From contig NC_003552.1 of NCBI RefSeq assembly GCF_000007345.1, positions 310,001 to 374,000 on the forward strand: a stretch of 64,000 bases of DNA, given 5' to 3'. The position numbers and the translations under genes were made by a program. The notes under the pieces are model-generated. The model was not told the DNA's origin. It saw only the letters and a list, made by a program, of their open reading frames with translations, and ran no database searches. The stretch's first letter is position 1. The number at the start of each line of letters is the position of its first letter. The stretch is from Methanosarcina acetivorans C2A. GTDB lineage: Archaea > Halobacteriota > Methanosarcinia > Methanosarcinales > Methanosarcinaceae. Below are positions 9,775 to 45,260 of this stretch, in pieces.

Positions 9775-10209
9775 ATTATTTCCGGAATCTCTTGTTAAAT
9801 TCTATATACAATTTTTATATAATAATTTTCCATAAAGCAGGTTCACAATTAAAATCGTTTTTCTCCAGACTCTGGTATTAATAGGGTTCGATAATCTTCA
9901 CGTCATTCACTCCCCTATTTTCAATGGGAGTTTAAAATTTGGTCCGAGTCCGGGTTAACAACTCAGATTAAACCGGGTTAGGACAGTTGGACAGAAGGCA
10001 ATGGTTAAAACCGGACTACAAAGTATAACTCGAAAAACTCTGAAAATTGTGAGGTAGCGAAAAAATCCCGGAATCAAAAAACAGATTCAGAATGTTGTCA
10101 AAAAATCCCTGAAGCTTTCCAAAAAAGAAACAAGAAACTCTATTATATAAATATCTGCCGCCGTCCCGAAAAGATCCTCTGGAATCAGACCTTAATTAAG
10201 AAGTACAAA
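9775..10209. other. Gene-less spacer
   Basis: The left end (about 9780-9830) is very AT-rich and holds TATAATAATTTT-type words suitable as a promoter for the leftward gene. The remainder shows no coding sequence. No methyltransferase remnant was found in it, so the specificity-like gene has no visible partner here. Confidence 0.5.
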
Positions 10210-10465: not shown

Positions 10466-11026
10466 ATGTGGCAGGAAATGGCAAAATACGGGCGCAAGCT
10501 GGTGGGACACGGGCTTGTGGAATCAAACTTCGGGAATATCAGTGTCAGGGCCGGAGACCGGATGCTTATTACCCGGAGTGGGACTGCTCTTGATGAAATC
10601 ACCGGGGATAACGTTGTTGAGGTGGAGATTCAGGATACCTCGTCTCTGGATATAATTGCGTCTTCCGAAACGGTAGTGCACAGGGAGATCTACACGAAAA
10701 CTTCTGCTCTGGCAATAATCCACGCTCACTGCCCTTATTCGGTGGTTGAGTCCCTGCTTGCCGGTCCTGCGGGAACGATTGTTCCTGTGGACAGTGAGGG
10801 TCAGTATTTCCTCGGGAATATCCCGGTGGTAAGCGGCGGAATCGGGAGCCTGGAACTTGCCGAAAACCTTGCAGGTGAGCTTTCAGGACACAGAGGGGCT
10901 GTGGTTTTCAGCCACGGAACTTTTGCCATCGGAAGGACTCTCGGAGAAGCTTATATTGTGACCACGCAGCTTGAGCACTCCTGCAGAATAAAGTACCTGT
11001 ATGAGCTTGCAGCCGTAAAAAAGTGA
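10466..11026 (+). CDS. fucA: Class II aldolase/adducin family protein (L-fuculose-phosphate aldolase-like)
   Basis: A 186-residue class II aldolase. Members cleave L-fuculose-1-phosphate to DHAP and lactaldehyde with a zinc ion. In methanogens the homologue has been linked to supplying lactaldehyde, a precursor of lactate for coenzyme F420. Visible motifs: the glycine loop ESNFGNISVR, the phosphate-binding TRSG, catalytic Glu in VVHREIY, zinc ligands in HAHCPYS and the third histidine in SHGTFAIG. All expected ligands are present. The length is slightly short of the bacterial ~215 residues, mainly at the C-terminus. No good ribosome site precedes the ATG, so a leaderless transcript is likely. 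Substrate assignment is by family. Confidence 0.82.
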   Translation: MWQEMAKYGRKLVGHGLVESNFGNISVRAGDRMLITRSGTALDEITGDNVVEVEIQDTSSLDIIASSETVVHREIYTKTSALAIIHAHCPYSVVESLLAGPAGTIVPVDSEGQYFLGNIPVVSGGIGSLELAENLAGELSGHRGAVVFSHGTFAIGRTLGEAYIVTTQLEHSCRIKYLYELAAVKK

Positions 11027-11288
11027 AAATAGGAAGTAAAAGTGATATAAGTAAGTATTATCTATGGAGTGCACTGATATTCAAACATACAGCCTTAAGT
11101 ATAAATATCAAAAGACAGGTACACAGAGGATTAATATAAATAAGCAGATCCAACCTAAGTAAATCCAACCCAAGTGGATCCAATCCGGCATAAGATGCAG
11201 GATAAAGCTGCGCAGGATAAAGCTACTATTCTTTCAGGCCTGTCTTCTATATAACGGAAATACAACTAAAAGGAAGATCCCAAATACC

Positions 11289-11900
11289 ATGACGTTTAAT
11301 GCCCTGAGACCCGTTGCCTCGAAAGTTATCGACCCGCTGGCAGATTTTTTCATAAGATATGAGGTCTCTCCTGATACGGTTTCCATAGTTTCCCTTATCT
11401 GTGCTTTCTTTGCGGGACTCAGTTTTTATTACTCTCCTGCATATCAGGAACTTGCCCTATTGGCAGGCATCTTGGTAGTGTTTAACTCGCTTTTCGATGC
11501 CCTGGATGGGGTAATTGCCCGCAAGTCCAACAGGGCAACCCCGAGAGGAGACTTCCTCGACCACGTAATCGACCGCTATTCGGACGTGTTCATTATCTGC
11601 AGCATTTTTTTTGCAGGTTATGTGTCCTGGCAGATAGGGGTTGCGGCAATCGTGGGTGTGCTTCTTACTAGTTATCTCGGGACTCAGGCCCAGGCCCTTA
11701 ATCTCGGGAGGTACTACGGCGGGATCATGGGCAGGGCTGACCGTCTCGTAGTCATAATCCTTGCCGCTTTTGCTAATTCGGTTTATCCGGCTTCGATTGC
11801 AGGCTTTCCCATCCTGGGTTGGGCTGTTATCCTGATTGCTGTAACCAGTCATATTACTGCAATCCAGCGGATTATGTATATCTGGAGAAGGCTGGACTGA
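11289..11900 (+). CDS. CDP-alcohol phosphatidyltransferase (archaetidylinositol-phosphate synthase-like)
   Basis: A 203-residue integral membrane enzyme of ether-lipid synthesis. It has the complete family signature D-x2-DG-x2-AR-x8-G-x3-D-x3-D with Asp70, Asp73, Gly74, Ala77, Arg78, Gly87, Asp91 and Asp95; Asp95 is the expected catalytic base. About six membrane helices follow the usual pattern. Its opening (LRPVASKVIDPLADFFIRYEVSPDTVS) fits the methanogen archaetidylinositol-phosphate synthase type, which moves a CDP-archaeol head group onto inositol phosphate; archaetidylglycerol or -serine synthases are alternatives. A possible ribosome site (AAAGGAAG) lies rather far upstream. It stands alone. 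Confidence 0.85.
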   Translation: MTFNALRPVASKVIDPLADFFIRYEVSPDTVSIVSLICAFFAGLSFYYSPAYQELALLAGILVVFNSLFDALDGVIARKSNRATPRGDFLDHVIDRYSDVFIICSIFFAGYVSWQIGVAAIVGVLLTSYLGTQAQALNLGRYYGGIMGRADRLVVIILAAFANSVYPASIAGFPILGWAVILIAVTSHITAIQRIMYIWRRLD

Positions 11901-11944
11901 TACCCTTCAGCTTTTTGTTCCAGCCATTTTCTGAGCCCCCTTCC

Positions 11945-12032
11945 TTTGGTTTTCAGTCTTTGGTTTTCAGTCTTTGGTTTTCAGTCTTTGGTTTTCAGTC
12001 TTCGATTTTAGTCTTCGATTTTAGTCTTCGAG
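11945..12032. repeat. 14/13-bp T-rich tandem repeat after the phosphatidyltransferase
   Basis: TTTGGTTTTCAGTC is repeated four times exactly (11945-12000), followed by two copies of the related 13-mer TTCGATTTTAGTC and a partial. It is placed 45 bp past the stop codon and the coding-strand T runs could aid transcription termination. Confidence 0.9.
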
Positions 12033-41771: not shown

Positions 41772-42455
41772 GTGAAGGAGTGGGGAAGTTTCCGGCATAG
41801 AAATTTGTATTTCCTAAAATCTTCACCCGAGGGTCTCTCTCCTATTGTCGGTTCCCTTCTCCTTCTACTAATGGTTTTTGTGCTTGCGGGCGCAATTGCA
41901 AGCAGCATTAATCTCTCCGGCTCCAGGACAAATTTTCAGTATCCTATGGCGAGAATAACTCTTGAATCCTGTGAAGGGGGGCTCTACGGGGTCGGTCCAG
42001 ACTCGGAGAGAGCCCGGCTTGAAGAAAATCAGATTGTCCTCATGCATGAGGGGGGAGATCCCCTCCCATTGGACTCTGTCTCTATAAAGATTTCCGGACA
42101 TGGAAACTCCTATCAGGGTGTCCCCGGAAATGGGGGTAGTCCTCTCAGCGGGGAACTCTCCGTCTTCTACAGGGATCTAAGTTCCGGAGGGAAAAATTCC
42201 ACCTGCTACGTTGTTCACAACAGCGTTACTCTTGAAGACGGCTTGTGGGGTGTCGGAGAAAGACTTGTGCTCTGTGGGCAGGACAGTGCAGTAGGAGCTG
42301 TAGAATCCAGCGTAAAAGTGGGCGTGGATGGGAACTATAACACCTCTGACAACTACGGTTTTAAAGCAGGTACTGAAATAACTCTAAATGTTGTTGACGG
42401 TAAAGGCAGAAATGTGATCGCCAAAAGAAAAACTATTGTCAAACTTGCCGATTGA
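41772..42455 (+). CDS. Archaeal type IV pilin-like protein
   Basis: A 227-residue protein beginning at GTG. The region EGLSPIVGSLLLLLMVFVLAGAIASSI is the archaeal pilin N-terminal segment (formerly DUF1628): a short leader, a peptidase site, then a hydrophobic stalk that assembles in pili. The rest is a globular beta domain with G/S-rich loops. Such proteins make adhesion or surface fibres. No pilus assembly genes are adjacent. A longer-than-usual leader of ~20 residues precedes the site, so the start may be slightly later. Confidence 0.72.
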   Translation: MKEWGSFRHRNLYFLKSSPEGLSPIVGSLLLLLMVFVLAGAIASSINLSGSRTNFQYPMARITLESCEGGLYGVGPDSERARLEENQIVLMHEGGDPLPLDSVSIKISGHGNSYQGVPGNGGSPLSGELSVFYRDLSSGGKNSTCYVVHNSVTLEDGLWGVGERLVLCGQDSAVGAVESSVKVGVDGNYNTSDNYGFKAGTEITLNVVDGKGRNVIAKRKTIVKLAD

Positions 42456-43761
42456 TATTCCAAAAGCTTGTGGCAGGAATTAAACGATAAATGCAAAAAT
42501 GGAAAGGTCAAATCTTTTTTGGATCTTCGCTGTTTTGAGTGGGTAACTTACATTCATCTTCTAAATGTCGAAGTAGCATATCTAAAATTTAGAAACACTT
42601 ATGGTTGAAAATCATATTCAAGCTTGATGTTTTTCTTTTTGGATTGGCAACTTTAAAACTATGCAAATATTTCCAACCCACAGGAAACAGCGAAGAGTCT
42701 CTTTTTTTATTTCCTGCTTAATTGTCTTACATCCGGTAGCGCTATTGAGCTTCCGTTGAGTTCAAGCCGGGAGCAAAAAGTGCTTTCCGAAAATTCAGAT
42801 AATATTCATCGTATTCCTCGCGTCCATGTGTACCACTGAAAACCGCCTGTCCGGAATGCGAATACGACTCGCAGATCCGCTTCCCCGTCTGTCTGTTATG
42901 CTCCGGTCTCAGGGAAGTCCTGGTCTTAGGGGGTCTGCCGCAAGGGCGGCAAAGGTTCGAAATTTGAAAAGCTTAACACTTTTTTGGGCGGAAACTTAGC
43001 TTGTTTTTGACAGAATATCGTGTATGGATTTGGAAATAAGAGTATTCTTTCTTTTTCAGGTTGGTTTTTGGGTTCAATTTCCGATCCACTCTTTAAGTGC
43101 CATTTTTTTTCTTATCAGGCTATTTAATTCTCCTCAACATTAGCATTTCTGGGTTAAGTATCTCCAAAAAGCTTCATTGGTGTTATTTCGAACTTTTTTC
43201 TTCAATCGGACTTATATGATGGGGATAAGAGTTCAATAGCAATAATAATCACCTGTTGGATTAGGGCTTTTGTCCCTAATCTCGATTGTGCTTGATTTTT
43301 AGTTTCATATGTGCAATTGATACTGAATTTAAATTCTTATGCTGAACTTCAAAATTTACTTCTTTGAGTCCTTTGTTAATTTTTCCTGTTAAAATATAAG
43401 ACATTTAGAGGCTTCGATAAGTTTTAATCCCATCACTTTAAGTTAGATTTCAAATTAATCGTATTATAAAGCTTATTTTATAAATTAATCTCGCTAATAT
43501 TCTCTGTTTTTATAAGTATGCTTTTATTTTATCCGGATAATTCCAGGGATGTCGACCGGCGGATAGTCGGCAAGACAATTGGGGCAAAGCAGGACTTATG
43601 CTTTTGAATTGGGGGAAATGGTAGCATAAGACTCCATAATGTCGAAATCTTAGTATCTATGACAGAATTGTCTGTGCTTTCTTTTTGACCTCATGTGCAT
43701 ACCATTCAGTGCATATCATGTGCATAAGTTCTATGAGAGAAAGTCCTGAGAGACGAAAACC
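42456..43761. other. 1.3-kb gene-less region with a GC-rich island
   Basis: The sequence is mostly AT-rich with no gene. The exception is about 42760-42975, where composition jumps in GC and one frame reads ACPECEYDSQIRFPVCLLC, with two CxxC pairs, for about 40 codons after a stop codon. It ends near GGTTCGAAATT. It could be a small zinc-ribbon remnant or a structured RNA; neither is secure. Confidence 0.4.
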
Positions 43762-43801
43762 ACTCTAAAGTGTATCAAAAACTACTCTAAAGTGTATCAA
43801 A
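43762..43801 (+). promoter_or_regulatory. 18-bp direct repeats spaced 22 bp
   Basis: ACTCTAAAGTGTATCAAA is at 43762-43779 and 43784-43801. The 22-bp period (two helical turns) and position 39-78 bp before the Trp-heptad gene suggest a regulator or promoter-proximal site. Confidence 0.5.
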
Positions 43802-43839
43802 TTGTATTAAATATTACAAAAATTAGGGGGTTAGGACAT

Positions 43840-44220
43840 ATGGGTAAACTAACATTTGATAGGCTAAAAAAGACCCTGTGTATGTTTACACTGGTTTTTT
43901 TTGTAATGTCATTTACAGCTGTGTCGGTAAGTGCAGAGTCAAATGATGCCAGTAAATGGAACCAGGAGAAGAAGACGTGGGATAAGGAGAAGAAGACGTG
44001 GGATAAGGAGAAGAACACCTGGAGCAACGAGAAGAAGAAGTGGGATACAGAGAAGAAGCAGTGGAGTAAGAAGAAAAGGGGCAATGAGTATAACATCTGG
44101 TTAAATAAATATAATTCCTGGTTATATAATTATTACATGTGGCTCAGCAAGTACAACAAATGGGAAAGCAATCACAGGAAATGGGAAACAAATTATAATA
44201 AATGGAGAAACAACCATTGA
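43840..44220 (+). CDS. Secreted tryptophan-heptad repeat protein
   Basis: A 126-residue exported protein. ATG at 43840 is preceded by GGGGGTTAGGA. Residues 1-32 are a signal peptide (basic start, core FTLVFFVMSFTAVSV, cleavage near SAES). The mature chain of about 93 residues carries twelve Trp in exact heptads: W40, 47, 54, 61, 68, 75, then a 12-residue step, and W87, 94, 101, 108, 115, 122. The first block is filled with Lys/Glu (DKEKKT), the second with Asn/Tyr/Lys (LNKYNS). A heptad with Trp at one position is consistent with a coiled coil or a repetitive rod. The DNA also shows a 21-bp tandem repeat. I do not recognise any family. Confidence 0.8.
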   Translation: MGKLTFDRLKKTLCMFTLVFFVMSFTAVSVSAESNDASKWNQEKKTWDKEKKTWDKEKNTWSNEKKKWDTEKKQWSKKKRGNEYNIWLNKYNSWLYNYYMWLSKYNKWESNHRKWETNYNKWRNNH

Positions 44221-44498: not shown

Positions 44499-45260
44499 TT
44501 ATTTTTCCCCGCAAATCAGATGATATTTGTAGTTATAGGCTATCCGTTTTCGGTACGGCATCTTCTTTTTCTGAAGTTCCATGATATCTTTCAGATCCAG
44601 GTCCTTTACATTTTTGAATCCTGCAGCCCTGAAATATTCAAGCATTTTTTCAGGAGGGACCCCATGCCGGTTAGGAAGTTCGCTGTCTATCTCTCTGGAA
44701 TAGTGCCCTTTTCTGGGGTTCCTTCTTTCGGCAAGCAAAGTGCAGAAGTCGCTGACAAACCTCCTGGCCTTCGTTTCAAAGGAACCGTCATTCCAAACCC
44801 CGTCAACAACAATAAGCACCCCTCCTTTCTTCAGCGCATTTCTCCAGTTCATGACTGCGGTATCAGGGTGCGGAAGGGTCCAGAGCAGGTGGCGGTTGAC
44901 AACAACATCAAAGGTATCCTCTTCAAATGGAGGGGCTTCTGCATCTCCTTTTTCGAATACGCTGTCAAACCCTTTTCTGGATGCTTTTTCCCTGGCTTTT
45001 GCAAGCATTTTTTCCGAAAGGTCAAGGCCTGTAACCTGGTGTCCCATCTCCGCAAACAGGAGCCCGATTTCACAGGTCCCGCAGCCCACATCCAGGACTT
45101 TTAACCTTCCCGGGGGGAGCAGGCTTTTAAAAATACGTTTCCAGGCTTCCCTTTCCATTTCACTCTGAATCCCGTGTCCTTCATGGCTGTCATAGGTCTC
45201 GGATGAGACATCCCAGATACGAGCAATATTTTGTTTGATCTGGTTTTCCTGAATGGTCAT
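44499..45260 (-). CDS. Class I SAM-dependent methyltransferase, first of two paralogues
   Basis: A 253-residue methyltransferase. SAM motif LDVGCGTCEIG, then GLDLSEKM and the post-motif GDAEAPPFEEDTFDVVVNRHLLW. The opening RIWDVSSETYDSHEGHGIQS is shared almost word for word with the gene at 50522-51289. It overlaps the ATPase gene by four bases (ATGA) and ends the transport operon. The substrate is unknown; a metabolite handled by the transporter is plausible but inferred. Confidence 0.85.
   Translation of the reverse strand: MTIQENQIKQNIARIWDVSSETYDSHEGHGIQSEMEREAWKRIFKSLLPPGRLKVLDVGCGTCEIGLLFAEMGHQVTGLDLSEKMLAKAREKASRKGFDSVFEKGDAEAPPFEEDTFDVVVNRHLLWTLPHPDTAVMNWRNALKKGGVLIVVDGVWNDGSFETKARRFVSDFCTLLAERRNPRKGHYSREIDSELPNRHGVPPEKMLEYFRAAGFKNVKDLDLKDIMELQKKKMPYRKRIAYNYKYHLICGEK

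Follow-up and report, generated by a model that had tools for sequence, protein, structure and literature searches.

Two heptad ladders of tryptophan in an exported Methanosarcina protein predicted to fold as a helical hairpin

Core ladders of tryptophan facing tyrosine or lysine have been made by protein designers and, to our knowledge, are rarely described in natural proteins. Aromatic residues at the a and d heptad positions are found in the designed coiled coil CC-Type2-(YaFd)4 (PDB 7BOA) and in engineered Lpp-56 variants with phenylalanine cores (PDB 2GUV, 2GUS), all of which are parallel assemblies of separate chains. Small exported proteins that are helical throughout include those of the Spy/CpxP/Metal_resist kind. 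FadA of Fusobacterium (PDB 3ETW), also small and exported, folds as an antiparallel two-helix hairpin whose loop is short and whose hydrophobic chain consists of one residue type, leucine, through which it polymerises (PMC13432900). Here we describe an exported protein of Methanosarcina that shares features with each of these, carries twelve tryptophans in two ladders, and probably serves as a structural component of the envelope.

The gene lies in a window of 64,000 nucleotides, the whole stretch of DNA that was analysed, which corresponds to 310001-374000 of a single 5,751,492-bp chromosome. Positions are those of the window unless a genome or locus is named, and the gene and its upstream region comprise the following features:

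43840 to 44220, forward strand: secreted Trp-heptad protein, predicted hairpin, an open reading frame of 126 amino acids plus stop (translation, family homologues, dN/dS)
43840 to 43935, forward strand: Sec-type signal peptide, residues 1-32 (from sequence; cleavage after SVSA placed by eye; leader common to all group A homologues)
43826 to 43830, forward strand: GGGGG, a ribosome-binding-like stretch about 9 nt 5' of the ATG (by eye from sequence)
43756 to 43801, forward strand: 22-bp direct repeat upstream of the gene, 2.1 copies with 95% matches, apparently a local duplication (repeat search)

The signal peptide meets the mature part between MGKLTFDRLKKTLCMFTLVFFVMSFTAVSVSA and ESN, a site judged by eye, leaving a mature protein of 94 residues (33-126) that is strongly basic by computation (net charge +11, pI 9.7) and contains neither Cys nor Pro. 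Translation places Trp at residues 40, 47, 54, 61, 68 and 75, and again at 87, 94, 101, 108, 115 and 122. The original prediction had reported exactly these twelve tryptophans in a secreted protein, with a Lys/Glu-rich first block and an Asn/Tyr-rich second, and its observation of the pattern was correct, as was its view, judged here from the Sec-type leader, that the protein is secreted. The heptads that it called perfect are so within each block only; the two ladders are mutually out of phase, since the step from 75 to 87 is 12 residues. The upstream repeat, which it had taken as a hint of regulation, fared differently. The exact 18-bp core of the repeat occurs in the whole genome only as its two copies at 43756-43801, matches with mismatches allowed are close to control, and in the region upstream of the orthologue in genome G003 a related stretch is present but the exact duplication is not. 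A regulon site was therefore rejected, and the repeat is best read as a local duplication.

Ten pairs of Trp at +7 were observed, compared with at most seven in 200,000 random draws of 12 Trp over 94 sites, and a chance origin of the spacing is excluded. In the 5.75-Mb genome a run of six TGG codons spaced by 21 bp is found only three times, and both blocks of this gene are among these. Elsewhere, at G000:C1:3596863-3596970 (L006, L127), another 21-bp tandem array carries six in-phase TGG codons in an 85-codon open frame; it encodes an SVWLSxD repeat unrelated to the Trp-heptad gene.

Block 1 is partly a 21-bp tandem repeat at the DNA level, with 75-81% matches between copies, so that the Trp spacing arose by duplication of this unit. 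The array could be a selfish or neutral expansion that has stayed open while having no function as protein, as its overall match level of about 80% and a copy number that differs between species would allow. The pattern of substitution argues otherwise. Between the mature parts of the window protein and its G003 orthologue, 38 of 94 codons differ (dN 0.14, dS 1.03, ratio 0.13) and all twelve tryptophans are kept. Across six W-type pairs of group A, some of which have sequences in common, 65 of 65 Trp codons are retained while 102 of 471 other codons have changed nonsynonymously (dN/dS 0.09-0.16). Ratios range from 0.05 to 0.33 in 14 of 15 pairs, with 0.49 in the remaining one, and lie at about 0.1-0.2 in most. 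Judged from these codon comparisons, the mature parts are under purifying selection, and retention of Trp under divergence is stronger evidence than the random-placement statistics. The array varies between species by whole 21-bp units and yet is kept as protein, its gene slot is conserved across ten species, and a layout of two blocks around a conserved loop would not be maintained by slippage alone, making a purely neutral repeat extremely unlikely. The original prediction had proposed looking for conserved heptads with synonymous change among Methanosarcina homologues, and this is what is seen, the spacing being kept at low dN/dS; its caveat that slippage might have produced the repeat in this strain only does not apply to a family found throughout the genus.

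Whole-genome searches of 31 Methanosarcina genomes recovered homologues in 24, in two of these by weak or broken matches only. Each genome with the family has one to six copies, the window's own genome a single one. Many further matches covered only the signal peptide and were discounted as similarity of leaders. A profile search of 393 genomes of the phylum returned only Methanosarcina and one haloarchaeal match, the family being absent from the other genera sampled. The haloarchaeal match is an unrelated WSSNRSSWSSSRP repeat of Ser and Trp and was rejected as a family member. When 84,980 species were scanned with a peptide pattern, a single locus came up, from a Methanosarcina MAG, and the viral contigs scanned gave no family match. 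In Pfam and NCBIfam nothing exceeded a curated cut-off (best 15.5 bits, against cut-offs of at least 27 bits for every family listed), in keeping with the original statement that the pattern belonged to no known family. A search for literature on Methanosarcina together with heptad tryptophan, helical hairpin or DUF7343 found no paper, and an S-layer proteomics paper makes no mention of the candidate locus tags, which were guesses. On these searches the family is undescribed and, among the genomes sampled, confined to Methanosarcina. It adds an uncharacterised exported family to a genus in which little is known of the envelope apart from the S-layer.

Members have in common a leader and two blocks, the first of them the Trp block, with a loop between that is close to KKHGN(D/E)Y. 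Two leader types were distinguished, MGKxxFDRxKK... in group A and MKKILGIFLAVCFVLSV... in group B. The leader MGKxxFDRxKKxxxILxLVFFVxSLTAASxSA also heads unrelated mature proteins in Methanosarcina (window:43840-43935; G000:C1:3653996-3654103; L030-L035), with about 50-60% identity over 35 residues, which is unusual for signal peptides; proteins bearing it may share a route of export or sorting. Another repetitive secreted family headed by the shared leader carries YKEGxKEGx repeats (L060:9659-10078 and 17 similar loci) and often lies a few kb from a group B gene. In one group B member, in genome G013 (L043:9464-10069), about 80 residues of a glycine-rich repeat, GAGNVGAGN, are inserted before the Trp block.

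The family unit is W-[DEN]-x-E-K-[KR]-x in block 1 and W-x-x-x-Y-x-K in block 2. In the family profile the ladder residue is W in 70%, L in 14%, F in 6% and Y in 5% of 243 block-1 heptads, and W in 76%, F in 16% and C in 6% of 210 block-2 heptads. The ladder position is hydrophobic family-wide, and nearly all other residues of block 1 are polar. Heptad spacing is kept across the family and Trp itself is not obligatory; in the alignment it is mostly replaced only by other hydrophobic core residues. What the alignment shows to be conserved along the ladder is its hydrophobic character, not strictly Trp. This exchange is best followed at the genomic slot of the gene, which is bounded by two neighbours:

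41772 to 42455, forward strand: archaeal type IV pilin N-terminal (Pilin_N) protein, upstream neighbour (PF07790, E 1.4e-8), next to the gene in eight other genomes
44499 to 45260, reverse strand: class I SAM methyltransferase, convergent neighbour on the other side of the slot (domain match, neighbourhood comparison)

The order at the slot is DUF5803 lipoprotein, Pilin_N protein, the gene, and then the convergent methyltransferase and Opp-type ABC genes, and it is recognisable in nine other genomes, either whole or in part (contig end or differing far side). In the window the methyltransferase gene overlaps the end of an ABC transporter operon of the Opp/Nik type, which also encodes an SBP_bac_5 protein (window:44499-50492), and the arrangement is kept in several further Methanosarcina genomes. 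At the window slot neither an anchor nor a cell-wall motif nor a conserved partner was identified. Trp occupies both blocks in the window genome and in G003, where three tandem copies have 6+6, 5+5 and 4+4 heptads. The orthologues of G009 and G019 combine Leu/Phe/Met in block 1 with Trp in block 2, and in six other genomes a Leu/Ile-type block 1 (e.g. LLLLLL or YLLILLL) accompanies a block 2 of the W-F-C-W-C-L type. Members of the Leu-type group agree with the window protein in leader, loop and heptad layout, in having Tyr at W+4 and, mostly, in gene slot, but their block 1 ladder consists of Leu/Ile/Phe/Met instead of Trp, and in seven of them block 2 is mixed (W/F/C/S/L/H). In the tree, whose midpoint root is for drawing only, the Leu-type members make up a single clade within group A (support 99/97) that is surrounded by Trp types, so that Trp is more simply the older, ancestral state of the ladder.

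A function specific to Trp, either the binding of flat ligands (methanophenazine-like molecules or carbohydrates), as the original prediction had offered, or electron hopping along the ladder, would suit an exported protein that keeps every ladder Trp in its W-type pairs, and Trp and Tyr are well suited to stacking. Such a function is nevertheless very unlikely: the same ladder positions carry Leu, Ile, Phe, Met or Cys in orthologues from the same neighbourhood, these forming a derived clade within the W-type tree; the tryptophans would be largely buried in the seam of a hairpin; and neither a cytochrome nor a sugar enzyme was noted in the conserved neighbourhood. Because Leu/Ile/Phe/Met occur in block 1 and some Phe/Cys in block 2 within one and the same neighbourhood, the simplest reading is that the ladder forms the hydrophobic seam of an aromatic coiled coil, W/K in block 1 and W/Y in block 2, and not an aromatic-only ligand site or electron path.

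Structure prediction places one Trp block on each of two helices:

43939 to 44064, forward strand: predicted helix 1, mature residues 2-43, bearing the W40-W75 ladder (AF2 model, heptad profile, 21-bp tandem repeat)
44065 to 44082, forward strand: hairpin loop SKKKRG, mature residues 44-49, non-helical; family consensus KKHGN(D/E)Y (AF2, alignment)
44083 to 44214, forward strand: predicted helix 2, mature residues 50-93, bearing the W87-W122 ladder with Tyr/His at W+4 (AF2 model, profile)

AlphaFold2 (AF2), which readily yields helices and hairpins for charged repeats and was here given a shallow alignment of three sequences (the window protein and two paralogues), returned a two-helix hairpin with a six-residue loop for the window protein (pLDDT 93, pTM 0.75) and the same hairpin for a 5+5-heptad paralogue (pLDDT 90). 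The predicted fold is therefore an antiparallel two-helix hairpin. Hydrophobic residues follow the 3-4 spacing of coiled coils in block 2, with W/F at d in 92% and Y/H at a in 97% (Y 87% and H 10% at W+4). Block 1 is hydrophobic at d only, with K/R at a in 91%, and so provides half a seam. The two arms vary in length by whole heptads, in group A roughly together (4+4, 5+5, 6+6; r = 0.44, 79/5000 permutations, members not independent); in group B their lengths are uncorrelated (r = 0.07), so that pairing along the whole of both arms is not required. The Trp-lined coiled coil of the original prediction thus stands as a helix of coiled-coil type, but the model suggests a two-helix hairpin with one ladder on each arm in place of one continuous coil. 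A Foldseek/VIA-align fold search of the PDB with the model gave nothing significant and one non-significant coiled-coil match (3hhm_B). The PDB profile search likewise had no significant match; below threshold it returned the Lpp-56 variants with Phe cores, the designed Tyr-a/Phe-d coil and FadA.

A DUF7343 membrane-anchored regulator is found nearby in groups B and A2. At a second group of loci (L071-L076, L079) the surroundings are conserved and comprise an ArsR-type regulator, a lipoprotein and a DUF7343 regulator, with a weak Metal_resist-like protein on the other side. The slot that in many species contains the group B gene holds, in the window's genome (L066:9292-9618(+), 9802-10185(+), 11011-11946(-), equal to G000:C1:2454-2457 kb), two tandem secreted proteins with the group B leader and different Trp-rich mature parts (IWVPGHWE, WIPGFWSWGWFW); both genes are convergent with a DUF7343 membrane-anchored regulator, so that leader and slot are kept and the mature part is exchanged.

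An envelope chaperone or stress buffer in the style of Spy, CpxP or Skp would be an exported helical protein, made on demand under envelope regulators, whose aromatic and basic surface holds unfolded exported proteins. That 19 of 23 group B loci adjoin a DUF7343 regulator with an extracytoplasmic domain, and that the second group of loci adjoins regulators, a lipoprotein and a Spy/CpxP-like Metal_resist protein (E 0.005), is consistent with this idea. The Metal_resist match of that neighbour is below cut-off, however, and the function would be read from neighbours only. Neither a DUF7343 regulator nor such a partner is present in the window slot neighbourhoods compared, and in the window's genome it is other Trp-rich secreted proteins that fill the group B slot; the regulator is thus not bound to the hairpin fold. 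By eye the window protein lacks an LTxxQ motif, and it has no match to PF13801 (Spy/CpxP/Metal_resist), with the precursor searched up to E 10 and the mature part up to E 0.1. We consider a chaperone unlikely.

The hairpin could also be the subunit of a surface filament or adhesin, joined end to end into fibres for aggregation or attachment in the manner of FadA. Its size class and architecture are those of FadA (signal peptide, about 100 residues, antiparallel helical hairpin, short loop, one hydrophobic chain; PMC13432900), although for the window protein the hairpin is a prediction (H2-43, H50-93, 94 residues, pLDDT 93). The tandem paralogues of differing arm length at one locus in G003 would fit this reading. 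The best profile similarity to FadA, at E 0.56, lies above any usual threshold and can arise from coiled-coil composition alone, and the leucine-chain contacts of FadA do not involve the same residues as here. A filament of this kind is rather unlikely.

The reading that we tentatively favour, at slightly less than an even chance, is a secreted structural hairpin that packs on itself as an element of the envelope or extracellular space. The small basic hairpin would present on each helix a face with a hydrophobic residue, here always Trp, at every seventh position, with Trp occupying d, and with Lys/Arg at a in helix 1 but Tyr/His at a in helix 2. Since a residues of one helix meet d' residues of the other in antiparallel coiled coils, layers of Trp on Tyr and of Lys on Trp would be expected: Trp of helix 1 would pack on Tyr of helix 2, and Lys of helix 1 would stack on Trp of helix 2 through cation-pi contacts. 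The aromatic seam might support lateral or end-to-end self-association, and the positive charge could bind acidic surface polymers. A structural role is what we infer for the protein. More doubtful is the stronger form, a natural aromatic zipper in which Trp-Tyr stacking and Lys-Trp cation-pi layers lock hairpins into an extracellular, Methanosarcina-specific fibre or lattice; if true, it would show in nature a mode of assembly for which designed coiled coils have so far been the main examples. The natural series of 4 to 9 heptads, with Trp-type and Leu-type orthologues at one slot, lets the cost and benefit of Trp versus Leu in a seam be measured.

Among the known systems, 7BOA aligns in register with block 2, its Tyr at a facing Tyr at W+4 and its Phe at d facing Trp. 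In contrast to the window protein, 7BOA and the Lpp-56 variants are designed or engineered as separate chains, they match at E 0.1-0.4, and block 1 of the window protein has aromatics at d only. FadA differs in having a chain of Leu and not Trp, and it was not returned by the Foldseek search with the window model; its likeness is likely one of analogy and not of kinship. The protein thus resembles FadA and the designed aromatic coiled coils by analogy, being homologous to neither, and if the prediction holds it would be a natural coiled coil with a continuous Trp-ladder core set against Tyr and Lys.
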